The notes under the pieces were generated by a model. That model did no database searches. It worked only from the letters and a program-made list of their open reading frames with translations, and was not told the DNA's origin. Positions 30,444-46,693 of a stretch of DNA of 64,000 nt are shown in pieces (positions within the stretch are counted from its first letter, which is position 1; each line of letters opens with the position of its first letter). Source of the DNA: Melioribacter roseus (GTDB lineage: Bacteria > Bacteroidota > Ignavibacteria > Ignavibacteriales > Melioribacteraceae); assembly GCA_020722065.1 (NCBI GenBank), contig DYLK01000003.1, positions 1 to 64,000 of the forward strand, given 5' to 3'. Position numbers and translations under genes: made by a program.

Positions 30444-31289
30444 ATGAAAGAATTTGTGGAATATAAAATCCAAACTCGACCTTTTGAGCCTGAAATTCTA
30501 TCTGGTTTGTTGTGGAATTTGGAACTTGATGGCTTGAACGAAAATGAAGAATCAATTTCAATTTTTGTCGAAAAAACATCTGAAATTGAACTGAAATTGA
30601 ATGATTTACTAAAATCTGCAATCGAAAATGAATTGATTGATTATTTTGAAATCACCAAAAATAATGTGGAAAACAAAAATTGGAATGAAGAATGGGAAAA
30701 GAATTTGAATGTGATTGAAATTTCAGATAAAATTGTGATAAAACCAACTTTTCGGGAATATGAAAATCCGCAAAACAAAATTGTAATAAATCTTGACCCA
30801 AAAATGTCTTTTGGCACTGGTGAACACGAAACAACAAAAATGATGATTCGAGCAATTGAAAAATATATTTCCAAAGGAGATTATGTTTTAGATGCTGGTG
30901 CTGGAACTGCAATTTTAGCAATTGCAGCTTTAAAACTTGGTGCAAGCAAAGCAATTGCATTTGATAATGACGAATGGTGCAAAATTAATGGGGAAGAAAA
31001 TAAAAATCTAAATCAAATATCTGAAGAATTGGAAATTGTCCTTGGTGAAATTGGCGATATTCATCAAACAAATTTCGATTTGATTCTGGCGAATATTAAC
31101 ACACATATTTTGATTGATATTAAAAACCAATTGGCAGAAAAGTTAAAATATGGTGGAAAATTGATACTTTCTGGATTATTGAATACTGATAAATCATTAA
31201 TCACCGAACATTTTCAATCTGAAAAATTACAGAAAATTGATGAAGATAGTGAAAATGAATGGAGTTTACTTGTTTTTCAGAAAGAATAA
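30444..31289 (+). CDS. prmA: Ribosomal protein L11 methyltransferase
   Basis: Class I methyltransferase of 281 residues that trimethylates L11. After an N-terminal L11-binding domain (1-75), the signature DPKMSFGTGEHETTKMM marks PrmA, the SAM loop reads VLDAGAGTAILAIAALKLGA, and the catalytic LANINTHI follows. It starts immediately after the PBP4 stop. It is the last gene of the aroF-aroA-tyrA-dacB-prmA run; a repeat-rich spacer separates it from the pilin genes. Confidence 0.93.
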   Translation: MKEFVEYKIQTRPFEPEILSGLLWNLELDGLNENEESISIFVEKTSEIELKLNDLLKSAIENELIDYFEITKNNVENKNWNEEWEKNLNVIEISDKIVIKPTFREYENPQNKIVINLDPKMSFGTGEHETTKMMIRAIEKYISKGDYVLDAGAGTAILAIAALKLGASKAIAFDNDEWCKINGEENKNLNQISEELEIVLGEIGDIHQTNFDLILANINTHILIDIKNQLAEKLKYGGKLILSGLLNTDKSLITEHFQSEKLQKIDEDSENEWSLLVFQKE

Positions 31290-31322
31290 TAACAATTAAA
31301 AGTTAAGAAATTGATTTGTCTT

Positions 31323-31493: not shown

Positions 31494-31883
31494 ATGGGAA
31501 ATCAACAATTATTACTCATCATTTTAGGAATTATTGTAGTAGGAATTGCGATTATTTCAGGTATTTATCTTTTTAGGGAACATGCAGTAGATTCAAAACG
31601 AGATACATTAATTCACGAGGGAATTAACATTTCATCGATGGCACAAAGCTACTATCTAAAACCACGAGAAATGGGCGGTGGAAGTGGCTCATTCAGTGGG
31701 TGGACAATTCCAAATAATTTAGTTCGTACAGCGACAGGAAGATTTTTTATAAGTAACAATTCAAATCCAATGGATTCAATTGTTTTCGAAGGAATTGGAA
31801 ATGAAGTAGCAACTTCGGGAGATTCAGTTCGAATTACAATTACTGTAACAAGAAATATTTACAGGGTTACGATTATTCATTAA
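31494..31883 (+). CDS. Pilin-like protein 1 with minimal MG leader
   Basis: A small protein of 129 residues: MGNQQLLLIILGIIVVGIAI begins a hydrophobic helix (about 4-26), followed by a helical stretch and a beta-rich C-terminal domain. If the Gly-2 to Asn-3 bond is the prepilin cleavage site, the leader is only two residues, and the usual Glu at mature position 5 is hydrophobic. I start at 31494, not at the upstream in-frame codons, because the paralogue 150 bases downstream begins identically. The pair shares AQxYYxKPxxxGGGxxxFxG after the helix. Position ahead of pilus assembly genes supports a pilin or pseudopilin role. It is not a canonical GFTLIE pilin. Confidence 0.75.
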   Translation: MGNQQLLLIILGIIVVGIAIISGIYLFREHAVDSKRDTLIHEGINISSMAQSYYLKPREMGGGSGSFSGWTIPNNLVRTATGRFFISNNSNPMDSIVFEGIGNEVATSGDSVRITITVTRNIYRVTIIH

Positions 31884-31955
31884 CCTGTAAAATTTACTGA
31901 ACTTGCGAATTTTATGAAAATCATCATAAAATCATAAAGAAATAAATAAGAAAAC

Positions 31956-31972
31956 TTGGCACAAAAATTTCA
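31956..31972 (+). promoter_or_regulatory. Possible sigma-54 promoter of second pilin-like gene
   Basis: TTGGCAC (31956-31962) followed by five A residues and TTTCA matches the sigma-54 -24/-12 pattern (TGGCAC-N5-TTGCA) with one mismatch. It lies 64 bases before the second pilin start codon. The similar TTGGCAC before the first pilin strengthens the suggestion. sigma-54 is known to drive pilA in Pseudomonas and Myxococcus. Confidence 0.4.
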
Positions 31973-32035
31973 ATACTTAACGCAGAAACTTAAAATTAAA
32001 TAATAACTCAAAACAAATTAAAAAGGAGATTCATC

Positions 32036-32479
32036 ATGGGACAACAACAATTATTACTCATCGTTTTAGGGGTTATCATAGTAGGAATTGCAGTTGTAGT
32101 TGGAATTAACGTATTTACAACAAGTTCACAATCATCAAGTAGAGATTTGGTTGTTTCTTCGTTAATTAATCTTGGTGCACAAGCACAACAATATTACAGA
32201 AAACCAACAGCTCTCGGTGGCGGTGGAAACGATTTTCAAGGATTTGCTTTAACTGCATCGCAATTTAATACTGCAGCTGGAGAATTTACAATTTCAACGT
32301 CTGTTCCAAGTGGTGCAACTGCAATTACTGGTGCGGCTGGAACAGTTTCATCTTCTGCTGATGAAATATATATTGTCGGGTCAGGTAATGATATAGGTAA
32401 TGACGGAACAAATCCAGTAAAATCCTATGTACGTGTTACACCAGATTCAATTATAGCCGCTTCAACGCCTTTGAATTAG
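32036..32479 (+). CDS. Pilin-like protein 2 with minimal MG leader
   Basis: A paralogue of the preceding gene, 147 residues. It opens MGQQQLLLIVLGVIIVGIAV, continues through a hydrophobic helix to about residue 27, and then has a small, Ala/Ser/Gly-rich domain containing QQYYRKPTALGGGGNDFQGF. A strong AAGGAG ribosome-binding site ends 8 bases before ATG, stronger than that of pilin 1, and an intrinsic terminator follows, so this is likely the abundant (major) subunit. A low charge density and no cysteines in the C-terminal domain are visible. The role as pilin is inferred from fold layout and neighbourhood. Confidence 0.75.
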   Translation: MGQQQLLLIVLGVIIVGIAVVVGINVFTTSSQSSSRDLVVSSLINLGAQAQQYYRKPTALGGGGNDFQGFALTASQFNTAAGEFTISTSVPSGATAITGAAGTVSSSADEIYIVGSGNDIGNDGTNPVKSYVRVTPDSIIAASTPLN

Positions 32480-32507
32480 TTGAGAAATATTACTACTCCA
32501 ATAATAG

Positions 32508-32535
32508 GGCTATCAAATATGATAGCCTTTTTTTT
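32508..32535 (+). terminator. Intrinsic terminator after the pilin-like genes
   Basis: GGCTATCA (32508-32515) and TGATAGCC (32520-32527) form a perfect 8-bp stem with a 4-base loop, followed by eight T residues. Lying between pilin 2 and the platform gene, it probably lowers expression of the assembly genes relative to the pilins, a common arrangement in pilus loci. Confidence 0.85.
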
Positions 32536-32547
32536 AAAGGTGATAAA

Positions 32548-33891
32548 ATGGTAGAACTAAAATTTTCGGCAGTAAAAACGAATGGAACAACGGTAACTGG
32601 AACAATTAATTCAGAAACCGTAAAATCTGGAAAGAATAAAATCAGTTCGATGGTTGAAAAATACAATTTGCAAAAATTGGTGATTGCTAAAAAGAGAAAT
32701 TTTATTTATAAGGTGAAAAAGAATGGCAAAATCGTAAAAGGAGAACAATCTGCTTTTTCGAGAGAAGAGGTTGTAAATGCAGTTACGAAATTGGGTTATG
32801 AAGTAGTTTCTGTCAATCCAAAATTGTTTGATTTTCAGATTAAACCGCCAAAGCAAGAAGTTTTATCATTTGTGAAAATTAGTGCCGAATTGCTAAAGCA
32901 AAAACTTGGTTACGGTGAAATAATGAATTTGCTTGTTAATGATATTAAACAGAAAACACTGAAAGAAACAATTCGACAAATTAACAATGAATTAAAAAAA
33001 GGGACAGATAGCCAAGTTGTTTATTCGAGATACGAATCTGTTTTAGGAAAATTTACTTCATATATGCTCGGACTTGCGGCAAAAAGTGGAAATATGACCC
33101 AAATTTATGAAGCAACTGCAAAATTCTTAGAACGACAAATGCAATTCAAAAAAGATTTGCGAAGTGCTTTAATTACTCCAATAGTTACTCTTTTTGTACT
33201 TTTCCTCGCAGTTTTATTTTATGTGGGCTATATTTTTCCAGAGACGGCAAAGTTATTTACAAAGTTTAATATTGAACTTCCTCCAATGACAAAAGCTACG
33301 CTTGATTTCAGTGAATTTTTAATAGAATATCCAATTGTAATTACATTAATTCTAATCATTCCTCCAATAATATTATGGAGATTTTCCAAAACTAAAAAGG
33401 GTAAATTATTGATTGATAAATGGTTACTGAGAATTCCAATAATAGGTAGTTTGATTCATAAAACAACAATTGAAGTATTTTGCCGTGTATTTTACACACT
33501 TTACACTGGCGCTGCGGAAAGTATTGAACCTATAAAAATTGCAGCCGAAGCTGCAGATAACGCATATTTTGAACATCAAATTAAAACAGTTGCAATTCCA
33601 TTAATGCTAAAAAAAGGAGTCGGTTTAACTGATGCTTTTGAAGCAACGGGAGTTTTTACAGAAACAGCTTTATCGCGATTTCATTCCGCTGAAGAAACTG
33701 GAACTCTTAAAAGTACGGCACTTCAACTTGCCAATTATTACGAAAGTGAAACTGTTTTTCGCTTGAAAAATATTGTAGAATTAGTTCAAGTTACAATTGC
33801 AATGATAATTATGATTGTAATGATTGGTTTAACACTAATTTCGGCTGAAACCGCAACAATTAGTCCGAAAAATCCGTTAATGGGTAGATAA
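32548..33891 (+). CDS. Type IV pilus/T2SS inner-membrane platform protein (PilC/GspF family)
   Basis: A polytopic platform protein of 447 residues linking the motor ATPase to the pilin-adding machinery. Two GspF repeats are visible, each a cytoplasmic helical bundle: about 105-210, ending in AAKSGNMTQIYEA, and about 300-405, with FHSAEETGTLKSTALQLANYYE. Each is followed by membrane segments (near 210-235, 258-280 and 415-440). The N-terminal ~90 residues, including a FIYKVKKNGKIVKGEQ segment, resemble the GspF N-terminal module. The gene starts 12 bases after the terminator and abuts the ATPase gene (TAA then ATG). Confidence 0.92.
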   Translation: MVELKFSAVKTNGTTVTGTINSETVKSGKNKISSMVEKYNLQKLVIAKKRNFIYKVKKNGKIVKGEQSAFSREEVVNAVTKLGYEVVSVNPKLFDFQIKPPKQEVLSFVKISAELLKQKLGYGEIMNLLVNDIKQKTLKETIRQINNELKKGTDSQVVYSRYESVLGKFTSYMLGLAAKSGNMTQIYEATAKFLERQMQFKKDLRSALITPIVTLFVLFLAVLFYVGYIFPETAKLFTKFNIELPPMTKATLDFSEFLIEYPIVITLILIIPPIILWRFSKTKKGKLLIDKWLLRIPIIGSLIHKTTIEVFCRVFYTLYTGAAESIEPIKIAAEAADNAYFEHQIKTVAIPLMLKKGVGLTDAFEATGVFTETALSRFHSAEETGTLKSTALQLANYYESETVFRLKNIVELVQVTIAMIIMIVMIGLTLISAETATISPKNPLMGR

Positions 33892-35706
33892 ATGGATAAA
33901 GAAATGGACAGAGAATTAATAGAACAGAAATTAGAAATGACCGACAAAATCGGTTATCTATTGCTTAAAAAGGGAATTATTGATTTCGAAATTCTTGAAA
34001 AAGCCTTGCAAGTAAAACTATCTGAAGCTGATAAATTAAAGAGAAATTTAGCTCAAATACTTGTTGAAGATTTTGGATACAATCATGATTTAATTTTTAA
34101 GGAAGTTGCAGTTTTATATGCTTTCAAAGAAATTCGTGAAGAAATTACTAATATTTCTGAAAAACGGTATGAAATTATAAAGAGGCTAAATGAAAGTTTT
34201 GGTGAGGAAATTAAAAAAAGTTTGCTCGAAAACAGAGTAATTATACTTCCATACGATAACAAACCTTCGGATAAAGTAATTCTTGCGGCTGTTGACCCTA
34301 CAAACAGAATGCTCACAAAACTTGCAAATCAGTTGAATTTGAAAAGATATGAAGTTTGCTATCTAAAATCTGCTGATTATGAAAATCTAATTCATCAAGT
34401 TTATCCACCAGAAAATGAATATCTGAAAATGATGGAAAATTCTGACGAGGTAATTGAAATTGAACACGAAGAATCGAATATCAGCGAAGAAGAAATTGAT
34501 TCAGAAATTAACAAAAGTGCTTTAATCAATTTAATTGAAGGAGCATTTATTGAAGGTGTAAGAAAAGGAGCGAGTGATATTCATATAATTCCAAACGGAC
34601 CTTTTTCCACAGACATTTTTATGAGAATTGACGGAAAACTTATGCTTTGGCACACACAAAAAAATACGCGTCCCGAAGCTGTAATTTCGGTTGTGAAAGA
34701 TCGTTCTCGTGGATTAGACAGATTTGAACGTGAAGTTGCACAAGATGGATTTATACAAAGAGAAATTGATAAAACAATAATTCGGTTTCGTGTTTCCGTT
34801 CTTCCAATTGTTGGAAAAGAAATCAAAAACAAGTTCGAATCAATTGTAATTCGTATTCTTGATGATAGAAAAGTTGTAAAAGATTTATCCAAATTAGGTT
34901 TACTTGGTTACGCATCGGAAGTATTTCAGAAAGCAATTCATCAACCACAAGGAATGGTAATTCTAACTGGACCAACAGGTTCAGGAAAAAGTACAACACT
35001 TGTTGCAGCGTTGTATCAAGTTATCAATCCAAGTGTGAATGTTCTAACTGTTGAAGATCCTGTTGAATATGAAATTCAAGGTGCGAGACAATTGAAAATT
35101 GGTTATAAAATGAATTTTGAACAAGCAATTCGAGCAATTTTACGACACGACCCCGATATAGTTCTGGTTGGAGAAATGCGTGATAAAGAAACAGCCGAAA
35201 CTGCGATAAAATTAGCAAATACAGGGCATTTAACATTTTCAACTCTTCACACAAACGACGCACCAAGTGCAGTTGCAAGATTATATAAAATGGGAATCGA
35301 ACCATTTCTGATTGCTTACGCAATTAATTTAATTGTAGCACAAAGATTAATTAGAAAACTATGTAATTCGTGCAAACGAAAAGTTGAAAACATTGATGAA
35401 AATTATTTGAAATCTGTGAATTTGGATGTTGATGAATGGAAATCCGCAGAAATTTATGAACCAGTTGGTTGCGAACATTGTAACAATACAGGTTACAAAG
35501 GAAGAATGGCAATTCACGAAGCACTTTATTTTACTAAAGAAATTCGTCAAATTATTGTAAAATCTGGAATTGAAGTTGATGAAGATGCAATTAGAAAACA
35601 GGCACGTTTAGATGGAACAAAAAGTTTACGAGAATCTGGTTTGGAGAAAGTAAAAGCTGGTTTAACTTCACTTCAGGAAGTAATTGCAGGAACAATGGAG
35701 GATTAA
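33892..35706 (+). CDS. Pilus assembly / secretion extension ATPase (PilB/GspE family)
   Basis: Hexameric cytoplasmic motor of 604 residues powering pilin insertion. N-terminal residues 1-170 resemble the MshEN/N1 domain, with an acidic linker to about 205. The ATPase domain has Walker A GPTGSGKST (360-368), an intact Asp box VEDPVEYEI, Walker B DPDIVLVGEMRD, and the His box THLHTND-type segment STLHTND. The zinc-binding tetracysteine region follows (CNSCKR and CEHCNNTGYKGR). All catalytic motifs are intact, unlike the PilT-like gene that follows directly. Confidence 0.94.
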   Translation: MDKEMDRELIEQKLEMTDKIGYLLLKKGIIDFEILEKALQVKLSEADKLKRNLAQILVEDFGYNHDLIFKEVAVLYAFKEIREEITNISEKRYEIIKRLNESFGEEIKKSLLENRVIILPYDNKPSDKVILAAVDPTNRMLTKLANQLNLKRYEVCYLKSADYENLIHQVYPPENEYLKMMENSDEVIEIEHEESNISEEEIDSEINKSALINLIEGAFIEGVRKGASDIHIIPNGPFSTDIFMRIDGKLMLWHTQKNTRPEAVISVVKDRSRGLDRFEREVAQDGFIQREIDKTIIRFRVSVLPIVGKEIKNKFESIVIRILDDRKVVKDLSKLGLLGYASEVFQKAIHQPQGMVILTGPTGSGKSTTLVAALYQVINPSVNVLTVEDPVEYEIQGARQLKIGYKMNFEQAIRAILRHDPDIVLVGEMRDKETAETAIKLANTGHLTFSTLHTNDAPSAVARLYKMGIEPFLIAYAINLIVAQRLIRKLCNSCKRKVENIDENYLKSVNLDVDEWKSAEIYEPVGCEHCNNTGYKGRMAIHEALYFTKEIRQIIVKSGIEVDEDAIRKQARLDGTKSLRESGLEKVKAGLTSLQEVIAGTMED

Positions 35707-36933
35707 ATGAACGAAAAGGTTTTGCAAGATATTCGTCGAGAAATTGAAATTTTTGAAGGGAATTTGTTGAATAGCGAAATTGTAACTTATACTGCAAAAA
35801 TAATTCAAACAATTTCAGAAGAACGAGTAAATTCGTATAGAAATGTCGTTGTTGAATTACTTCATAATATGATAAAATATAACGCATCGGATATTGAAAT
35901 TGGCGGCGATGGAACAAATAATATGATTTGGTTGCGAGTTGAAGGAATTAAAAGAGCAATTCCAGAATTTGGCGAGTTAAAACCATTAGAAGCTAATTTT
36001 CTAATTCTATCTTTATTGAATAAAAATCAAATTGAAAGTCTAATAATTGAAAGAAATATAGATTTTAGTTTTTCAATTAGGAATGATGAAGGTAAAAATT
36101 TCCGATTTAGAGGAAATATCTACTTCGAAATGGATAAATTGGCTATGAATTTCCGTGCAATTTCTGCTCAATTAAGAAAATTAAGCACTCTCGGATTTCA
36201 TTCAAATCTTGTTAGAATGATGAGTCACCAATATGTAAAAGCTGGTTTATCTTTAATAACTGGAATTACAGGCTCAGGCAAATCTTCAACTTTGGATTCA
36301 ATAATTGATTTTCATAATAGTTTTGACCCTGCACACATTATAATTCTTGCTTCGCCAATAGAATTTGTACATAAATCTTATAAATGTATAATTCGTCATC
36401 GTGAAATTGGAAAAGACGTAAAATCATTCCAAAATGGAGTTGTTGAAGCGATGAGACAAGATCCAGATATAATTGTAATTGGTGAAATGCGAGACCAAAA
36501 TACAATTCTTGCCGCTTTGGAAGCAACAGATACTGGACATAAAATTTTTTCAACATTACACACTTCTTCAGCAATAGAAACAATAGATAGAATTATCGCA
36601 GAAGTTAGTCCATTCGAGCAAGAACGAGTTCGTTTTCGTTTGGCGGATGTTTTAACTTCTGTAATATCACAAAAGTTAGTTCCGACAGTTTCAGGTAAAA
36701 GAATTCTGGCAAAGGAAGTTTTAATTGCAACACCAAGTGTTAAAGCTGCAATAAAAAGTAATAATCTAAACGAGATTTACGGAATGATTCAACAAGGGGG
36801 AAATTTGGGAATGATAACATTGGAACAAGATTTGCTCAGGTTATTTAAAGAACGAACAATAAGTAGCGAAACTGCAATATCGTTCTCAAATAACAAAACA
36901 AGAATGATGCAATTACTAAAGGCTGTAGAATGA
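35707..36933 (+). CDS. PilT-like retraction ATPase with altered Asp box
   Basis: A 408-residue ATPase, closest by eye to PilT. The Walker A motif is GITGSGKSS (186-194), Walker B reads DPDIIVIGEMRD, the His box reads GHKIFSTLHTSSA, and the C-terminal part carries the PilT-like EQERVRFRLADVLTSVISQKL run. At residues 215-219 it reads ASPIE where PilT and PilB normally read EDPIE, so the two acidic residues of the Asp box are gone. This may reduce or abolish ATP hydrolysis. Abutting starts and stops on both sides place it in the pilus operon. A retraction motor implies a pilus rather than a plain T2SS. Confidence 0.88.
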   Translation: MNEKVLQDIRREIEIFEGNLLNSEIVTYTAKIIQTISEERVNSYRNVVVELLHNMIKYNASDIEIGGDGTNNMIWLRVEGIKRAIPEFGELKPLEANFLILSLLNKNQIESLIIERNIDFSFSIRNDEGKNFRFRGNIYFEMDKLAMNFRAISAQLRKLSTLGFHSNLVRMMSHQYVKAGLSLITGITGSGKSSTLDSIIDFHNSFDPAHIIILASPIEFVHKSYKCIIRHREIGKDVKSFQNGVVEAMRQDPDIIVIGEMRDQNTILAALEATDTGHKIFSTLHTSSAIETIDRIIAEVSPFEQERVRFRLADVLTSVISQKLVPTVSGKRILAKEVLIATPSVKAAIKSNNLNEIYGMIQQGGNLGMITLEQDLLRLFKERTISSETAISFSNNKTRMMQLLKAVE

Positions 36934-38456
36934 AAAATTTAGTCTCAATATATTTCGATTCAGGAATGCTAAAAATTGCAATTTTCGAAAAAACATCTTC
37001 AAGTTTGCAAATACTGAAACTTATATCATCTTATCCGCTTGTTAATAAAAATGAAATGAATTATTCAGAAAAAACAGATTTGTCGAAAACATCAACTGAA
37101 ATGGATTTTGACGGATTTGAATTTAGCGAAGATAAAAATTCCAATGTAGTTGATATTGAAAAATTGAACACAGTTCTAAATGAGCTAAAATTTTCGAAAT
37201 ATGATGTTGTCATTTCATCATCAACGCCGGAAATTGATTTTGTTTGGTCAACAAAAAATGGAAAATCAAGCGAAATCGTAATAAGCAAATTAACTGAAGA
37301 AATTGCTGCGAATACTGGGCAAATAATTGGGAAAGATTTAGTTGATTTTCTTGAATCAGAAAATGAAAAAAATCTTGGTGTTTACATTAAAAGTGAAATA
37401 AAAGCGTTAAATCTATTAAATGAATTAGCAAGTAAAAATCGCAAGCGAAGTCAAAAAATTGTTGGAATAAAAAATTCCGAGATAACTTTGGCAAAATATG
37501 TAGTAAATAATAATGAAATACTTGCAAATGAACATTCGGTAGTAATTTATCTCGACAAATTCTTAAGTACAATTACTTTTCTAAAAGGGAAAAGCATTGT
37601 CCATTTTGGCGAGAAGTTGGATATTGGTACAAATTCCGAAGTTTATTCTGAAATATTTTCATCAAAAATCTTCTATGAAATGGAAAAAAGTAATATTTCT
37701 CATTTGGATAACATTTTTCTCTGTGGTGAAAATATTGATGAAGATGTTAGAATGAAATTCTATATAAATTTCCCAGAAACGAAGATAAAAATAGTTGATT
37801 TCAATTCAATAAAATTTGATGAGGCAGTTCTCTCCGAAAATAGCAAAACTTGTTCGTTTGCTATTCCAATCGCAACTGCTTTGGAATATTCTGAAGAAAT
37901 TGACAAGAAAAAGAAAATCGGAATTACAATTTTGCCAACTTATATAAAGGAACAGCAAAAATCACTTTCTTTGGGTTTTACTGGGATTGTAATTTTCATT
38001 CTTCTGTTTTTATCGGCGTTTTATTTTACAAGTTCAATTCTTGAAAAGGAAACTTTGCTTAAATCACAAGAACGACAAATTCGCAATTTGGAAAAAATTA
38101 AATCAGAAAACAGTGATTTGATTAATCAAATTTCGGGACTTTCGGGAAAAGTGAGCAACTTTTCGAACACAAAATTAGTTCTCGATTCACTTACTTTGAG
38201 CAACCGAGAATGGAGTAATAAGTTGATGGAAATTTCAAATTTTGCTGGAAATTACCGCAATTTTTGGTTAAAAACTTTAACATCAGAAGGAACAAATTCC
38301 GTTGATCTTTCAGGTTATTCACTTTCTCGTGGAGTTTTGACCGACTTGGCGAGATTTAACCAAAGTTCAACGATTTTCAGTATGCTTTACGAACCGCTAA
38401 AAAAATTAAATACATATAAATTCAATCTAAAATTCCCATTAAAGGTGAAAAAATGA
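36930..38456 (+). CDS. PilM-PilN-like fusion (inner-membrane assembly protein)
   Basis: A 508-residue protein. Residues 1-340 look like a PilM/GspL-type actin-fold cytoplasmic domain: it starts VSIYFDSGMLKIAIFEK and has a central strand with VVIYLDKFLSTITFLKG, plus an FLCGENIDED segment like the phosphate-2 loop. A single membrane helix (about 346-368) follows, then a coiled coil rich in Lys/Glu (about 370-400), then a PilN-like periplasmic domain. PilM and PilN are usually two proteins; the layout here resembles GspL of T2SS. It overlaps pilT and the next gene by 4 bases each. Assignment rests on order, topology and fold hints. Confidence 0.75.
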   Translation: MKNLVSIYFDSGMLKIAIFEKTSSSLQILKLISSYPLVNKNEMNYSEKTDLSKTSTEMDFDGFEFSEDKNSNVVDIEKLNTVLNELKFSKYDVVISSSTPEIDFVWSTKNGKSSEIVISKLTEEIAANTGQIIGKDLVDFLESENEKNLGVYIKSEIKALNLLNELASKNRKRSQKIVGIKNSEITLAKYVVNNNEILANEHSVVIYLDKFLSTITFLKGKSIVHFGEKLDIGTNSEVYSEIFSSKIFYEMEKSNISHLDNIFLCGENIDEDVRMKFYINFPETKIKIVDFNSIKFDEAVLSENSKTCSFAIPIATALEYSEEIDKKKKIGITILPTYIKEQQKSLSLGFTGIVIFILLFLSAFYFTSSILEKETLLKSQERQIRNLEKIKSENSDLINQISGLSGKVSNFSNTKLVLDSLTLSNREWSNKLMEISNFAGNYRNFWLKTLTSEGTNSVDLSGYSLSRGVLTDLARFNQSSTIFSMLYEPLKKLNTYKFNLKFPLKVKK

Positions 38457-39346
38457 GTAGAAATCTTAAAAATACAATAGCCCTTTTTGTCTTGTTATTG
38501 CTTGTTTCGGGTTTTGGTGGAATTTATTCTTTTGTTATTCAATCAAAAAAGATTTCAGTTAATGAAAAAAGATTGGATGAACTCAAACAATTTTCGAAAA
38601 ATAGAGATGCACTTTTAAGAGAAGTTTCACCGTTGAAATCTGAAGTTACAAAGTTGGATTCTTTGTTGAATAAAATGGAATACAACATTCCAACAAATCT
38701 TTCGCAATATGATTTTTATGATTTTGTAATTAAAAAAACGGCAAATTTTTCATCAAATTCCCATGTAAATGTAACTTTTCTTCAAAAAAAAGATTTGAAA
38801 GATTTCTCTTATTACGAATATCTAATTTCTGGAGATGCATATTATAATGATTTGTATAATCTGATTTTTTCAATTGAAAATTCAAGAGCGATAAAACAAG
38901 TCTCAAATGTAAGTTTAAGTGGGGCAATTATTGTAGATGAAGAAGGAATTCCAAGATATTTAGTGAATTTTAAGTTTAATGTAAGAGTTTTTTCTTCATC
39001 ATCTAACAGATTTGTAGCTAGTGATTTTTATGAAAAAGAGCTTGTTGCTCCAAAACTTTATGATATGTTTTACCCATTAATTCGAGATAAAATTATCCCA
39101 AATCTTGAGCATAATTTAGATGTTCACACAGCCAAATTGTTAGCAGTTCTTCCTAACGGAGCATATTTAACAGATGCAAGTCAGCAAACATTTCTGCTAA
39201 ATAAAGGCGATAAAGTTTATCTCGGATATTTAACTTCAATCAATCGAGAAGACGATGAAGTGGATTTTGTAATAAATAATGGTGGAATTGTTGAATACGT
39301 AACGTTAACATTAAAGAACGAGGAAAAAAATGAACAGAAAAAGTAA
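38453..39346 (+). CDS. PilO-like protein with C-terminal PilP/GspC-HR-like domain
   Basis: A 297-residue inner-membrane protein. It has one N-terminal membrane helix (about 10-30), a coiled coil (about 35-80) and a ferredoxin-like PilO/GspM domain to about 185. The C-terminal ~75 residues (from 222), with LLAVLPNGAYLTDASQ and then KGDKVYLGYLTSI, match the short beta-sandwich pattern of PilP or the GspC HR domain that binds the secretin. No separate pilP gene is present between here and the secretin, which fits a fusion. It overlaps the neighbouring genes by 4 and 17 bases. Confidence 0.65.
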   Translation: MSRNLKNTIALFVLLLLVSGFGGIYSFVIQSKKISVNEKRLDELKQFSKNRDALLREVSPLKSEVTKLDSLLNKMEYNIPTNLSQYDFYDFVIKKTANFSSNSHVNVTFLQKKDLKDFSYYEYLISGDAYYNDLYNLIFSIENSRAIKQVSNVSLSGAIIVDEEGIPRYLVNFKFNVRVFSSSSNRFVASDFYEKELVAPKLYDMFYPLIRDKIIPNLEHNLDVHTAKLLAVLPNGAYLTDASQQTFLLNKGDKVYLGYLTSINREDDEVDFVINNGGIVEYVTLTLKNEEKNEQKK

Positions 39347-40598
39347 ATTATTAGTCATTTTTCAAGTGATATTTATCAGTTACACATTCCAATTTGCTCA
39401 AGTTGAACTTGAAAAAGAAATGAATCAATATTTTCATCCCGATGAATTAGTTAGTTTTTCTGAACATATTCCATTCAACCGAGCAATTGAAATTTTAAGT
39501 GCGATTAACGAAAAATACACGGGAAGAACAATTCGTTCATTAATAGATAAAAAAGATCCAATAGGAATTGAGATAAAACAAACTCCATATTGGAAAGCAT
39601 TGAAAATTATTGTGCAATTCAACAATTTGTTTTATGAAACAAAAGAAAATGCAATAATAATTCAACAAAAGGATGAAATTAAAAATCTTGATACAAAAAC
39701 TTATGCCGATATAGAAGAAGGGCAAGTAAAAATATCAGCGTTGTTTTTTGAAGCAAATACAGCAAAATTGCAAGAACAAGGAATTAATTGGCAATTGTTG
39801 CTTTCAAAATCGGGAGTTACAATTGGAAGTGGTTTAGTAACATTCGGGCAACCTTCAACAAATAATAGCGAAAGCGAAGAATCTTCGGCAATTCCACCGC
39901 AATTTATGAATGAAATATCACATGATTTTACTTCGGGTGATTATCAAGGGAATATTACCGCACTTTTCAACTTCTTTCAATCACAAAATTTGGGACAAGT
40001 AATTGCAAATCCATCAATAATTGTAAGAAATGGTCAAGTTGGAAGAATTCAAATTGGTTCAGATATTTCTATAAAACAACGAGATTTTGCTGGAAATGTT
40101 CTTGATGCATTTGTTTCAACTGGAAGTATTGTTGAAGTTACTCCATATATTTATAAACAAGATGGAATTGAATACGCTCTCCTTAAATTGAAATTAGAAA
40201 GAAGCTCAGTTTCGCCCGATGTTACAAGGACAGAAATACGTAAAACTACCGCAAGTACAGATGTTTTGATGTTAGATGGCGAAGAAACTGTAATTGGTGG
40301 TTTGTTTGTTACAGATATTGTAAATGTTAGGCGTGGAATCCCATTTTTAAAAGATTTACCTTGGTGGGTTTTGGGAATTCGATACATTGCTGGTTACGAT
40401 TATGAATCAGAAGAAAAGAAAGAAATAATCATTCTACTAAAAACTGAAATAATGCCAAGTCTCAAAGAACGTTTTGCGAATAAATCAATTCAAAATAATT
40501 TGATAAAAAAAGAAATTCAGAATGGAAACGATTATATTCAAAAAAATAAAGTTTATGACATTGGATCAGAATTAACCGAAATCGGGGTAAAAAAATGA
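39330..40598 (+). CDS. Short secretin (PilQ/GspD family)
   Basis: An outer-membrane channel protein of 422 residues with a signal peptide ending near FQFAQ (residue 24). A single small N-domain follows (about 40-115), and the secretin core runs from about 120 to 385 with VIANPSIIVRNGQVGRIQIG, VEVTPYIYKQ and the C-terminal gate/signature VRRGIPFLKDLPWWVLGIRY. Family members usually have several N-domains and 600-750 residues, so this is a short form. It overlaps the PilO-PilP-like gene by 17 bases and the first receiver gene by 4. It should form the exit pore of the pilus. Confidence 0.88.
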   Translation: MNRKSKLLVIFQVIFISYTFQFAQVELEKEMNQYFHPDELVSFSEHIPFNRAIEILSAINEKYTGRTIRSLIDKKDPIGIEIKQTPYWKALKIIVQFNNLFYETKENAIIIQQKDEIKNLDTKTYADIEEGQVKISALFFEANTAKLQEQGINWQLLLSKSGVTIGSGLVTFGQPSTNNSESEESSAIPPQFMNEISHDFTSGDYQGNITALFNFFQSQNLGQVIANPSIIVRNGQVGRIQIGSDISIKQRDFAGNVLDAFVSTGSIVEVTPYIYKQDGIEYALLKLKLERSSVSPDVTRTEIRKTTASTDVLMLDGEETVIGGLFVTDIVNVRRGIPFLKDLPWWVLGIRYIAGYDYESEEKKEIIILLKTEIMPSLKERFANKSIQNNLIKKEIQNGNDYIQKNKVYDIGSELTEIGVKK

Positions 40599-40960
40599 TT
40601 TCAATATTAATTATTGATGATGATAAATATCTTGCTGAACTACTTGCTGATGAATTGAAAGAATTAGGTTTCAAATCGGAATTTGTAAATTCGGCGTCAG
40701 AAGGAATTTCCCAACTTAGCCAAGAAAATGATTACGATATTGTTCTTTTAGATTTAAAAATGCCCGAGCACGATGGCTTTTGGGTTCTTGAAAAAATGCG
40801 AGAAATTGATTGTAAACAAAAAGTTATTGTAGTAACCGCCTATGCCGATTTAGATTCAGCACTAAAATCAAGCAAACTTGGAGCGAGTGGTTTTGTAAGT
40901 AAACCATACGATTTGGATGATTTGTTGATTACAATACGAAGTGTTCTGCAAGAAATATGA
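40595..40960 (+). CDS. Single-domain response regulator
   Basis: A stand-alone receiver of 121 residues. The acidic pocket ILIIDDDKYL is followed by the phospho-acceptor Asp in VLLDLKMPEHDG, the conserved Thr in VVTAYAD and the Lys in VSKPYD, so it should be phosphorylatable. There is no output domain, as with CheY-like or PilG/PilH proteins that steer pilus motors. It overlaps the secretin gene by 4 bases, linking it to pilus control. Its kinase is not evident in the window. Confidence 0.88.
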   Translation: MISILIIDDDKYLAELLADELKELGFKSEFVNSASEGISQLSQENDYDIVLLDLKMPEHDGFWVLEKMREIDCKQKVIVVTAYADLDSALKSSKLGASGFVSKPYDLDDLLITIRSVLQEI

Positions 40961-41412
40961 AAAAATCAAAATCATATAATTTTAGTTTCCATCTTTCAAA
41001 TGAACAATTTGAGAATAATAATTTTGTGGGTTTTGATGAAAAACTTGCAACAATACTTGTAAATGATGACGATGAAACAGTACTTAATCAGTTTACCAAA
41101 TTTCTTGAGGAACTTCCGTTGCAAGTAATAACAGTTAAAAGTGGTTTTGAGACATTAATTTTACTGAATAAAATTTTACCCAAATTGATTTTTCTTGATG
41201 TATTAATGCCAGATTTTAGTGGATTTGAAACTATTTTTCGCATTAGAAATGATAAACGATTTTCATATATTCCAATTATTGCTTTAACATCTTTTGCAAT
41301 GCATGAAAATTTGAACATAATCAAAAAAAATGGGTTTACAGATTTTCTTCTCAAACCTATAAAAAAAGAAGAATTAATTAAAAAAATAAATCAATTTGTA
41401 TTTGACAAATAA
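40957..41412 (+). CDS. Receiver-domain protein with N-terminal extension
   Basis: A 151-residue protein with about 28 leading residues ahead of a receiver domain. The acidic pocket reads ILVNDDDETV, the acceptor Asp is in LIFLDVLMPDFSG, and the Thr and Lys equivalents are IIALTSFAM and LLKPIKK. The pocket sequence departs somewhat from the usual VDD, but the residues are acidic, so function is plausible. It overlaps the upstream receiver gene by 4 bases. No output domain is visible. Confidence 0.82.
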   Translation: MKKSKSYNFSFHLSNEQFENNNFVGFDEKLATILVNDDDETVLNQFTKFLEELPLQVITVKSGFETLILLNKILPKLIFLDVLMPDFSGFETIFRIRNDKRFSYIPIIALTSFAMHENLNIIKKNGFTDFLLKPIKKEELIKKINQFVFDK

Positions 41413-41413
41413 A

Positions 41414-42100
41414 ATGAAGAAAAAAATACTTGTAGTTGACGATCAACAAGCTAACATTTTTATAATCACGGAACGCTTAAAAAAAGTTGGTTACGATGTA
41501 ATAACTGCCGAAGATGGAAAAACTGCTATTGACATTGCAATAAATGAAATTCCAGATTTGATTTTACTTGATGTAATGATGCCCAAAATGTCGGGATTTG
41601 ATGTTTTACAATTTTTGGTTGCTCACGAAAAGACAAAAGATATTCCTATTATTTTGTTAACTGCTCTAACTGATTTTGAAGATGTTAAAAAAGGTTTCGA
41701 ACTTGGGGCTTTCGATTATGTTAAAAAACCATTTAATCGTGAAGAGCTACTTGCCAGAATTCGTTCGGCATTGCGATTTAGTGAAACAAACAAACTTTTG
41801 CTTGAAAATGAAAAAATGAAATTGTTTCAAGCATTTGTGGTTACCGCAAATCACGAAATACAACAACCACTTACAATGATTAATCTTTCGACTGCAGCAC
41901 TTCGAAGAAAATTTACAGAAAATGGTTTAATTGAAGATGAATTTGTTTCGAAACGAATTGATTTTATTGAAAAAGCAGCGGCACATTTAATTGAAATTGT
42001 AGAAAAACTAAATAGAGTTAAAAGACCAGTTTTCACAGAATATTTGAATAACCTTGAAATGATAAATATAGATTCCCCTGAAAAACCTCAAAATGAATAA
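41414..42100 (+). CDS. Receiver fused to a lone HisKA-like dimerisation domain
   Basis: A 228-residue protein. Residues 1-125 are a receiver with ILVVDDQQAN, the acceptor Asp in LILLDVMMPKMSG, the Thr in ILLTALTD and the Lys in YVKKPFN. Residues 140-215 form a helical pair with an H-box-like FVVTANHEIQQPLTMI, so the phospho-accepting His is kept. No HATPase domain follows, so the protein cannot phosphorylate itself. It could pass phosphate between Asp and His groups or dimerise. The ATG at 41414, one base after the upstream stop, is chosen over a TTG at 41396. Confidence 0.82.
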   Translation: MKKKILVVDDQQANIFIITERLKKVGYDVITAEDGKTAIDIAINEIPDLILLDVMMPKMSGFDVLQFLVAHEKTKDIPIILLTALTDFEDVKKGFELGAFDYVKKPFNREELLARIRSALRFSETNKLLLENEKMKLFQAFVVTANHEIQQPLTMINLSTAALRRKFTENGLIEDEFVSKRIDFIEKAAAHLIEIVEKLNRVKRPVFTEYLNNLEMINIDSPEKPQNE

Positions 42101-43820: not shown

Positions 43821-44234
43821 ATGAAAAAGAAAATAGCATATTTAAGTTTAGCAATTTTGACATCAGTAATCTCAATTTTTGCACTTGGAACAACATTATC
43901 TTTGTTTAATGCTTATAGCAGTGGAGAAAATATCATTGTAAATTGGCAAACTTCTGAAGAGATTAATTTAAGGGAATTTGTTGTTCAAAGAAAAAGTTTA
44001 AATATGTCTTATGTTGAAATTGGAAGAATTGCTGCAAGAGGGGGCAATAATTACTATACTTTTGTTGATGAAAATGTTTTTTCGAAAAATACGAATGAAG
44101 TTTTTGTTTATAGATTAAAATTTGTTAGTACAAATTCGGGAGTTGAAGCAACTTATTCAGACGAAATTACAGTTTCTCACAATATTTCAAGTGTAAAAAG
44201 AACTTGGGGAAGTATCAAGGCACTTTTTAGATAA
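43821..44234 (+). CDS. Small secreted protein with fibronectin III-like domain
   Basis: A 137-residue protein with a signal peptide (MKKKIAYLSLAILTSVISIF onward). The mature part has the pattern of a single FN3-like sandwich, including ENIIVNWQTSEEINLREFVV and VYRLKFVSTN, close to the repeated modules seen in large secreted FCB proteins. I set the start at the ATG at 43821; the in-frame upstream codons are poor. The gene lies between COG2509 and maf with small gaps. The role is unknown. Confidence 0.65.
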   Translation: MKKKIAYLSLAILTSVISIFALGTTLSLFNAYSSGENIIVNWQTSEEINLREFVVQRKSLNMSYVEIGRIAARGGNNYYTFVDENVFSKNTNEVFVYRLKFVSTNSGVEATYSDEITVSHNISSVKRTWGSIKALFR

Positions 44235-44237
44235 TTC

Positions 44238-44816
44238 ATGCTTCCCGAAAATATTCCGATTATTCTCGCTTCAAAATCACCACGTCGAAAAAAATTACTT
44301 TTGCAAATTGGATTGAAATTCCAAGTAAAAGTGTTCGAAACTGACGAAACCTATCCTTCAAATCTAAAACCATTTCAAATCGCAAAATACATAGCCAAGC
44401 AAAAATTGGATGAAGCTAAAAAACATCTTCAAAATTCAATTATAATTACTGCTGACACAATTGTTGTTTTGCATAAAGAAATTCTGGGAAAACCCAAAAA
44501 TGAAGCTGATGCAGTAGAAATGTTGAAAAAATTAAGTGGTAAAAAGCATTATGTTTACACTGGATTGGGAATTGTAAATCAACAAAACGGGAAAGAAATA
44601 ATTGATTTTGTAAAAACTTGTGTAAAATTTAGAGAGTTAAATAATGAAGAAATAATTGAATATGTTGCAAGTGGCAGTCCGATGGATAAAGCTGGAGCTT
44701 ATGGAATTCAAGATGATTTTGGGGCAGTGTTTGTTGAACGTATTTCAGGATGTTTTTATAACGTAATGGGTTTACCACTTTCAAAACTAGTTCAAAAATT
44801 TTATGAAATTGCTTAA
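44238..44816 (+). CDS. maf: Maf-like nucleoside triphosphate pyrophosphatase
   Basis: A 192-residue house-cleaning enzyme that hydrolyses non-canonical or modified nucleotides. Family markers are IILASKSPRRKKLL at the N-terminus, IITADTIV with the catalytic Asp, GKPKNEADA, and DKAGAYGIQDDFGA near the C-terminus. The start ATG is 4 bases after the preceding gene. The UPF0104 membrane gene begins directly after its stop. Confidence 0.93.
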   Translation: MLPENIPIILASKSPRRKKLLLQIGLKFQVKVFETDETYPSNLKPFQIAKYIAKQKLDEAKKHLQNSIIITADTIVVLHKEILGKPKNEADAVEMLKKLSGKKHYVYTGLGIVNQQNGKEIIDFVKTCVKFRELNNEEIIEYVASGSPMDKAGAYGIQDDFGAVFVERISGCFYNVMGLPLSKLVQKFYEIA

Positions 44817-45764
44817 TTGAACAGAATCAAAAAAAATATTTTCCCGTCAGTTTTATTTTCAGCTTTGTTTTTTATTGTGTTATCATTTTGGGGAGACTCA
44901 CATCAAATATTTTTATTATTAAAGGAATTTCCACTTTCAAATTTGCTAATTGCTTTGGCATTTTCTTTTGCAGTATTTGTTGTGAGATTAATAAAATGGC
45001 GGTTTTATCTTATTAAAATGGGAGAAAAAATTCCGTCGAAAGATGTTTTTCTATCTTTTTTTGCTGCATTGTCATTAAGTTTTTCCCCAGGTAAAATTGG
45101 AGATTTATTAAAATCTTATTATCTGAATGAAAGGCATTCGGTGAGATTTACTAAAACTTTTTCAATAATTTTGATGGAAAGAATGACCGAGGTGTATTCA
45201 TTAATTCTAATTGTGTTTTTTGGCTCAATTATTTTTGGAAATAATTCGTTAATAACAGTATTAATTTTCATTTTAGCTCATTTATTAATATTTATCGTCA
45301 TAAAAAAAGAGTATTATGAATTAATTCTTTCCAAATTACACAGATATGAGAGAATACAAAAATACTTGAAATACTTTCAATCTTTATACGGGAACTTGAT
45401 TGAATTAATAAAGTTGAAAATATTTATTCCCTCAATGCTACTATCTTTGTTAAGTTGGATTTTTGAATTTATCGCAATATTTACAATCCTTACAACTTTC
45501 AAAATTAAACACAACTTTTATGAAATATCATATTTTTACAGTTTTTCAACATTATTGGGTTCAATCTCTTTTCTTCCAGCAGGTATAGGAATAATGGACA
45601 CATCATTTTCATTTATTTTAATTTTGTTGGGATTTGATGAGAATTCAGTATTAGCTTCAACAATAATGATTAGAATTTCAACACTTTGGTTTGGAATATT
45701 GCTTGGTATTTTAACACTGATTATTTTTAGAAGTCAAATGAATTTTATATCGAAATATGACTGA
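44817..45764 (+). CDS. UPF0104 / lysylphosphatidylglycerol synthase transmembrane-type protein
   Basis: A polytopic membrane protein of 315 residues with about seven or eight helices. The N-terminal core with SFAVFVVRLIKWRFYLIKMG, the middle SFSPGKIGDLLKSYYL and the later FLPAGIGIMDTSFSFIL are typical of the UPF0104 family, flippase-like relatives of the MprF membrane domain. The start codon is TTG, directly after the maf stop, with no clear ribosome-binding site. Possible roles are transport or modification of lipids or glycans, but the substrate is not known. Confidence 0.8.
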   Translation: MNRIKKNIFPSVLFSALFFIVLSFWGDSHQIFLLLKEFPLSNLLIALAFSFAVFVVRLIKWRFYLIKMGEKIPSKDVFLSFFAALSLSFSPGKIGDLLKSYYLNERHSVRFTKTFSIILMERMTEVYSLILIVFFGSIIFGNNSLITVLIFILAHLLIFIVIKKEYYELILSKLHRYERIQKYLKYFQSLYGNLIELIKLKIFIPSMLLSLLSWIFEFIAIFTILTTFKIKHNFYEISYFYSFSTLLGSISFLPAGIGIMDTSFSFILILLGFDENSVLASTIMIRISTLWFGILLGILTLIIFRSQMNFISKYD

Positions 45765-45845
45765 AAAGTATTATTATTGAATAGTAAATTCAATATTTAT
45801 CAAAAAATTAATAAATTATTTATAATTAATAAATCTGGAGTCGAA

Positions 45846-46274
45846 ATGGCACGTGAAAATGAAGGATTAGGTAAAGGCTTAATTCTCGGTTTTTTAGCAG
45901 GTGGGTTAGTTGGAGCTGTAATGGGATTACTTTATGCTCCAAAATCCGGTAAAGAAATGCGAAATGATATAAAAGAAAAAGCTGATGATTTGATGGAAGA
46001 AGCACATAGTATGCTTTCTGACGCAAAAACAAAAGCTGATAAAATGATGAACGAAGGGAAAAAGAAATCTGAAGAAATGGTTGCTCAGACGAAACTAAAA
46101 GTTGGGGAATTATTATCAGAAGCTGAAGAAATCCTTGAAGGAGCAAAAAAAAAAACAAGTGAAATAATTCATAACGGAAAAGAAACAATTACAGAAAGAA
46201 CTGATACACTAAAAACTGCTGTAAAAGCTGGAGTTGATGCTTATAAAGCAGAAATGGATAAAAAGAGTAAGTAA
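45846..46274 (+). CDS. YtxH-domain protein
   Basis: A 142-residue protein. A glycine-rich membrane helix (LILGFLAGGLVGAVMGLLYA, about 11-30) is followed by PKSGKEMRNDIKEKADDL, the YtxH signature, and then a long charged amphipathic helix rich in Lys, Glu and Ala. The ATG at 45846 follows a CTGGAG site, and the 23 codons before it look like untranslated leader. Proteins of this kind are linked to stress or the membrane, with no defined function. It overlaps the next gene by one base. Confidence 0.8.
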   Translation: MARENEGLGKGLILGFLAGGLVGAVMGLLYAPKSGKEMRNDIKEKADDLMEEAHSMLSDAKTKADKMMNEGKKKSEEMVAQTKLKVGELLSEAEEILEGAKKKTSEIIHNGKETITERTDTLKTAVKAGVDAYKAEMDKKSK

Positions 46275-46693
46275 TGGAAGTTATTGAAATATTTATTATT
46301 GCTCTTATAATTGCAGTAATTGTTTTAATCGGTTACATCATAAAATTTCTAAAAAACACAACAGAGTCAATCAAAACAATGGTTGGCTCTGTTTCTGCAA
46401 TGCAACAAAATATTTCTGAATTAAAAACTGAAATAGTTGAATCAACTCGGAATATTGAACACATCACACGAAATATTGCTGAACTTACCGATAAAATTGA
46501 ACTTGATTATTCTACAATATCAAATTTGGTTGATAAAGTAAGAAAATTTAGCATTTTTCCATCAAAATCAAATAAAATGGATAAATCAGAATATAAGTCT
46601 GAATTTACTCATTCTGAAAGAATTAATAGTTTACTTGCAAGTCTTAATGCAATTAAAACCGGATTTACAGTATTTTATAACAAAATGAAGTGA
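46274..46693 (+). CDS. DUF948-like membrane-anchored coiled-coil protein
   Basis: A 139-residue protein with one N-terminal membrane helix (about 4-24) and then a heptad-like stretch (KTMVGSVSAMQQNISELKTE and onward) predicted as coiled coil. This layout matches DUF948 proteins, which are often found beside YtxH genes, as here. The pair probably acts together at the membrane. No enzyme motif is visible. Confidence 0.68.
   Translation: MEVIEIFIIALIIAVIVLIGYIIKFLKNTTESIKTMVGSVSAMQQNISELKTEIVESTRNIEHITRNIAELTDKIELDYSTISNLVDKVRKFSIFPSKSNKMDKSEYKSEFTHSERINSLLASLNAIKTGFTVFYNKMK

Follow-up and report, generated by a model that had tools for sequence, protein, structure and literature searches.

A type IVa pilus-like locus of Melioribacter roseus with leaderless pilins and no detectable prepilin peptidase

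The window analysed here is a stretch of 64,000 nucleotides of Melioribacter roseus (GenBank assembly GCA_020722065.1, contig DYLK01000003.1, positions 1 to 64,000), in which eleven genes at 31494-42100 are predicted to encode a type IV pilus-like machine. An earlier note on this DNA had described such a locus, and all eleven genes were located at the positions it gave. It mentioned the GFTLIE leaders of pilins without pursuing them; the real finding is that the pilins of this locus are leaderless and that the genome has no detectable prepilin peptidase. The genes are listed below, with lengths in amino acids (aa).

31494..31883, plus strand: major-type pilin 1, leaderless, 129 aa, starting MGNQQLLLIILGIIVVGIA; one of a leaderless family of 156 genes
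32036..32479, plus strand: major-type pilin 2, leaderless, 147 aa, starting MGQQQLLLIVLGVIIVGIAVVVGI; same leaderless family, predicted pilin fold
32548..33891, plus strand: PilC/GspF inner-membrane platform (PF00482, E 3.9e-22; HofC/PilC/GspF models, E 1e-35 to 1e-39)
33892..35706, plus strand: PilB-type extension ATPase (PF00437, E 1e-103; TIGR02538)
35707..36933, plus strand: PilT/PilU-family retraction ATPase (TIGR01420, E 8.7e-95)
36930..38456, plus strand: PilM-PilN fusion (PilMN) of GspL-like architecture (PilN profile, E 1.3e-9; PilM fold, Z 23.5)
38453..39346, plus strand: PilO plus an additional conserved domain at its C-terminus, a putative and unproven PilP counterpart (PilO, E 8e-6)
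39330..40598, plus strand: short PilQ-like secretin, 422 aa (PF00263, E 1.8e-21; best NCBIfam model PilQ, E 5.8e-26)
40595..40960, plus strand: stand-alone receiver RR1 (PF00072, E 6e-25)
40957..41412, plus strand: receiver RR2, seemingly left over from a hybrid histidine kinase (PF00072, E 7.6e-20)
41414..42100, plus strand: RR3, receiver with a weak HisKA-like segment (PF00072, E 4.7e-29; HisKA, E 4.6e-4)

Among the 156 distinct homologous pilin genes, the codon of residue 1 was ATG in 135, GTG in 11 and TTG in 10, with no other codon present, and it therefore behaves as a true start codon. Residue 1 is followed by G-x-Q-Q, in which Gly2, Gln4 and Gln5 are invariant in 156/156 sequences. The nearest in-frame stop 5' of the start is a median of 4 codons away, and 149 of the 156 genes have no in-frame start further 5', which rules out hidden upstream starts for them. 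Pilin 1 of the window belongs to the seven exceptions, having an in-frame TTG at 31311, an ATG and other TTGs further 5'; its homology begins at ATG 31494, and the more 5' starts fall in non-homologous sequence. Part of the set was gathered with a pattern containing MG. The 40 pilins found by BLAST without that pattern agree, except for one truncated by a contig end, as do all 18 found by profile in a second class of the phylum, which begin MGQQQL. Read from the genes, translation of the major pilins begins at the residue just before the invariant Gly2.

The hydrophobic segment begins within five residues of this start. Glu5 is absent from the major pilins, and Leu occupies that place in the structural register. 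A class III signal peptide, i.e., a cleavable leader of 6-26 aa ending in Gly and followed by a hydrophobic run with Glu5 (PMC4471445), is not found in them. The window pilins matched no Pfam family. Among 22 family members, one gave Pfam matches, to ComP_DUS and PilE_C. The AlphaFold2 model of pilin 2 (mean predicted local distance difference test score, pLDDT, 87.8) resembled PilV 5v23 (Z 8.1, 88 residues, 2.5 A) and PAK pilin 1oqw (Z 7.9, 117 residues, 3.1 A). The best eight rows of this structural search were all pilins or pseudopilins, and unrelated folds appeared from Z 3.6 downward. Foldseek returned no significant match for the model, and the pilin matches came only from a second-look aligner. 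The earlier description as pilin-like is confirmed by the type IV pilin fold of this predicted model. In this model residue 4 superposes on the canonical mature residue 1 of 1oqw, 3sok and 9iuf, so that just three residues lie ahead of it. A profile alignment with PilE1 and geopilin agreed on this register but was weak (E 0.3 and above), and it is supportive only. Four genomes (G018, G126, G136 and G173) hold 8-10 leaderless-pilin matches each, which suggests many alternative subunits.

With a profile built from other families, a homologue of their large minor pilin was detected in the genome of M. roseus; it is the final one of three neighbouring minor-pilin-like genes, which lie at about 43907-46390 (L194:5908-8391) of a contig (G000:C29) that does not carry the main locus. 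Their products of 161, 198 and 462 aa begin MNTGQMLITIG, MGFSSIIDIIG and MGGKAALLLVLG, respectively, and none has a conventional leader. In the second type, an Asp close to the Glu5 position is invariant. The trio corresponds to three genes between pilB and pilT in other families; judging from this homology and from the N-terminal segments, the three would be the minor pilins of a type IVa pilus. All five pilin-type proteins recognised in the genome are leaderless.

A leader peptide together with a prepilin peptidase is used as the defining mark of all type IV filaments, for which annotation tools look. The genome of M. roseus (2.38 Mb, 100% complete) gave no match to PF01478 (A24) or PF06750, whereas the same profiles match in control genomes. 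Of 197 genomes of the class, 102 hold both the pilin and PilMN (Fisher p 4e-44), and A24 was not found in 94 of these 102. A failure of the search was rejected as the explanation, because the profile finds A24 in eight genomes of the class, in 10 of 22 named relatives (most of them Calditrichota or KSB1) and in 12 of 14 controls. All eight A24-bearing genomes of the class also carry the leaderless system, and in them A24 lies in a locus apart from it. A second PilB/GspE-like ATPase of about 40% identity adjoins A24 in seven of these eight loci, and six contain a canonical-looking prepilin with a leader, Gly(-1) and Glu5 (e.g., mklikdekg/FTLIELMVT). Among the named relatives, some A24 loci have another GspF/GspE and prepilins, while others are too short or have neither. 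It is possible that one peptidase serves both systems where A24 is present, which is inapplicable where none is found.

These data also bear on an ultra-short leader consisting of M-G, in which Gly2 would be the usual Gly(-1) and would be cut by an unrecognised peptidase. The invariant Gly2 does recall the Gly(-1) of bacterial prepilins, and minor pilin 1 has Gly4 ahead of its hydrophobic run. However, known leaders are hydrophilic and 6-26 residues long (PMC4471445), the fold puts canonical residue 1 at position 4 and not 3, and in minor pilins 2 and 3 Gly does not recur at a fixed position. Invariance of residues 2, 4 and 5 would moreover be unusual in a discarded leader, and with A24 missing from most genomes that hold the system, we regard such a leader as improbable.

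The remaining machinery was largely recognised by its families: the platform, the two ATPases and the secretin were assigned through significant matches in Pfam and NCBIfam, as the earlier note had named them. The PilB gene scored higher with TIGR02538 (PilB, 415 bits) than with GspE (390 bits), both below the curated cut-offs. The PilT-family gene reached 317.8 bits with TIGR01420, 1.3 bits short of the cut-off of 319.1, and its product has the Walker A sequence GITGSGKSS and a GEMRD motif. The only type IV pilus-type ATPases above the family cut-off in the genome are the two of the main locus. For the secretin, the PilQ model outscores GspD.

As single queries, proteins 6 (PilMN) and 7 (PilO) gave no meaningful family match, and they were identified through profiles of 38-39 relatives and, for protein 6, also through an AlphaFold model (mean pLDDT 83). 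In this predicted model, residues 2-337 resemble P. aeruginosa PilM 5eou_B (Z 23.5, 3.4 A, 288 residues), while residues 362-486 match M. xanthus PilN in the alignment profile (E 1.3e-9). The order is a PilM domain, then a membrane helix, then PilN, and the PilM-PilN fusion proposed earlier is well borne out. The cytoplasmic part also matched the GspL/EpsL cytoplasmic domains (Z about 15), below the full PilM match. The proposed PilO-PilP fusion stands for its PilO half, which matched PilO of 3jc8 by profile (E 8e-6) and Pfam PilO in five of 39 members. The PilP half is unproven: the C-terminal domain of about 90 residues, conserved with a GDxVYLGY...GGI block, sits at the position expected for PilP, and profile searches gave no significant PilP match for it. 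By sequence, the locus has the components of a type IVa pilus, namely PilB and PilC, the PilT family, PilM, PilN and PilO (the first two fused) and a secretin. One family has a second cluster (L055, G051:C1:640500-657500) with homologues of the pilin, PilMN, PilO and the secretin; platform and ATPase genes are absent from that stretch.

GspL of type II secretion joins PilM-like and PilN-like domains. The M-N fusion is therefore not the remarkable part of the locus, and of the streamlined pilus or secretion machine suggested previously, the type IV pilus-like machine with fused platform proteins holds, without the fusion setting it apart. The likeness to GspL, and a third minor pilin whose large size (462 aa) recalls GspK, would suit a pseudopilus that pushes proteins through the secretin as in type II secretion; its pilins would be leaderless all the same. 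To our knowledge, type II secretion systems have no retraction ATPase, whereas a PilT-family gene lies in this locus and is conserved there across families. As the PilB and PilQ models also outscore GspE and GspD, we consider a pseudopilus unlikely, though a more credible alternative than the ultra-short leader.

The pilin family was found in 106 of 197 genomes of the class and in 131 of 395 genomes of a phylum sample, including the second class, where 10 of 12 loci read contain the full machine; a PilMN protein search found homologues in 107 of the 197. Named genomes yielded 359 pilin relatives when scanned, and among the best 80 are Ignavibacteria, Melioribacteraceae, Kryptoniota, Calditrichota and KSB1. 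Comparison of 40 loci of the class showed that the order F-B-T-MN-O-Q is kept in most, with the pilins 5' of F where the stretch extends; many more distant families have three extra genes between B and T. The gene order was thus met with across the class and in the second class, as the earlier note had proposed to look for, and its idea of a lineage-specific invention was rejected, since pilin-F-B-T-MN-O-Q recurs in two classes of the phylum. Conservation of this order, the presence of Gly2, Gln4 and Gln5 in every pilin, and the intact frames and ATPase motifs indicate purifying selection. They leave hardly any room for a decayed pilus without function, left after the loss of pilD and of the prepilin leaders, although the kinase of the window has shrunk to a receiver.

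Within the locus, 4-base overlaps join T/MN, MN/O, secretin/RR1 and RR1/RR2, and O and the secretin overlap by 17 bases. The overlaps reported to lead into the receivers hold for the first two; for the third, the most likely start is ATG 41414, right behind the previous stop, and it therefore does not overlap RR2. RR1 adjoins the secretin in many relatives, and several of them have a hybrid histidine kinase of 925-1182 aa between RR1 and RR3, at the position of RR2. RR2 matches the tail (C-terminal receiver) of that kinase, and the window keeps only this receiver, so RR2 appears to be its leftover. The built-in regulation supposed earlier looks, in part, like a vestige. Directly 5' of the pilins, at 30444-31289, lies a gene recognised by eye as PrmA-like (ribosomal protein L11 methyltransferase); a role as pilin N-methylase is unsupported, as relatives have other genes 5' of their pilins.

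Taken together, the locus most likely specifies a machine that resembles a type IVa pilus, is retractable and has leaderless subunits, for which no prepilin peptidase is needed. What the genes themselves present is pilins without leaders, no detectable A24 peptidase and most of the remaining engine; subunits made without a class III leader would not require the peptidase. In the proposed mechanism, the pilin would insert directly as made by the ribosome, and a stub of roughly three residues (M-G-Q), located ahead of canonical residue 1, would stay in the cytoplasm. Since residue 2 is Gly, which methionine aminopeptidase generally prefers at that position, this enzyme may take off Met1. PilB, PilC and the PilMN-O ring would assemble the subunits into a filament that exits via the secretin and is retracted by the PilT-family ATPase. 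From its conservation alone, the invariant G-x-Q-Q tip may stand in for methylated Phe1 and Glu5 in platform or inter-subunit contacts. The predicted uses are likely attachment, twitching or DNA uptake; the genome encodes ComEC, which permits DNA uptake but is no proof of it.

Several points weigh against this interpretation. The mature N-termini, filaments and motility are predictions from genes. The absence of the peptidase rests on A24 profiles, and an unrelated or very diverged enzyme may exist. No PilP, PilY1-like or pilotin component was recognised, the uncharged N-terminal tail leaves the N-in orientation of the subunit unexplained, and the Gly of minor pilin 1 (MNTG/QMLIT) is readable as the end of a very short leader.

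On balance, the leaderless machine probably represents a distinct and ancient class of type IV filaments in Bacteroidota, Calditrichota and KSB1, in which all pilins are leaderless and assembled unprocessed and G-x-Q-Q replaces the methylated Phe1/Glu5 end. If so, removing the leader, which is taught as a universal step, may be unnecessary, as a widespread system lacking both leader and peptidase would show. The purpose of processing would become testable, i.e., whether cleavage serves assembly itself or merely removes the leader. Predictors of pilins that rely on leaders miss the pili of this group.

In the literature searched, which left out most subscription papers, no description of leaderless type IV pilins or of the motif MGQQQLLLI was found. 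A paper on M. roseus noted pilT, pilQ, pilB and pilC and did not find pilA and pilD (PMC3534657); our interpretation would explain why the pili of cultured Melioribacter were judged incomplete, as leaderless pilins went unrecognised. Suppressors of a pilD deletion in Synechocystis show that cells live without a prepilin peptidase (PMC8546353). That case, however, concerns a laboratory mutant that is harmed by unprocessed prepilin, whereas here leader and peptidase are naturally absent. A superfamily survey counted the prepilin peptidase in the ancestral system and described MSH loci without one, in genomes that hold another system encoding it (PMC6668835). This explanation fails here, because no peptidase was found anywhere in the genome.

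Within the same broad group, the cluster for type II secretion in Cytophaga hutchinsonii shares the secretin, ATPase, GspF and PilM/N/O/P-like proteins with our locus, but it is reported to contain the Peptidase_A24 prepilin peptidase CHU_3197 and pseudopilins (PMC5553014), whereas the leaderless locus is without an A24 peptidase. With GspL, the fusion protein shares a PilM-like cytoplasmic domain, one membrane segment and a PilN-like periplasmic domain; unlike in GspL, the PilM-like domain is closer to full PilM, and a PilT-family gene stands alongside. Common with the type IVa pilus are PilB, PilC, the PilT-family ATPase, PilM, PilN, PilO, the PilQ-like secretin, the pilin fold and minor pilins. 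The differences are the lack of a class III leader, of Glu5 in the major pilin and of a detectable prepilin peptidase, the fusion of M and N, and a PilP counterpart that is only putative. By gene content and fold, the system would work like a type IVa pilus, and as it departs from the superfamily in two defining features, the leader and the peptidase, it is best described as a variant of that machine.
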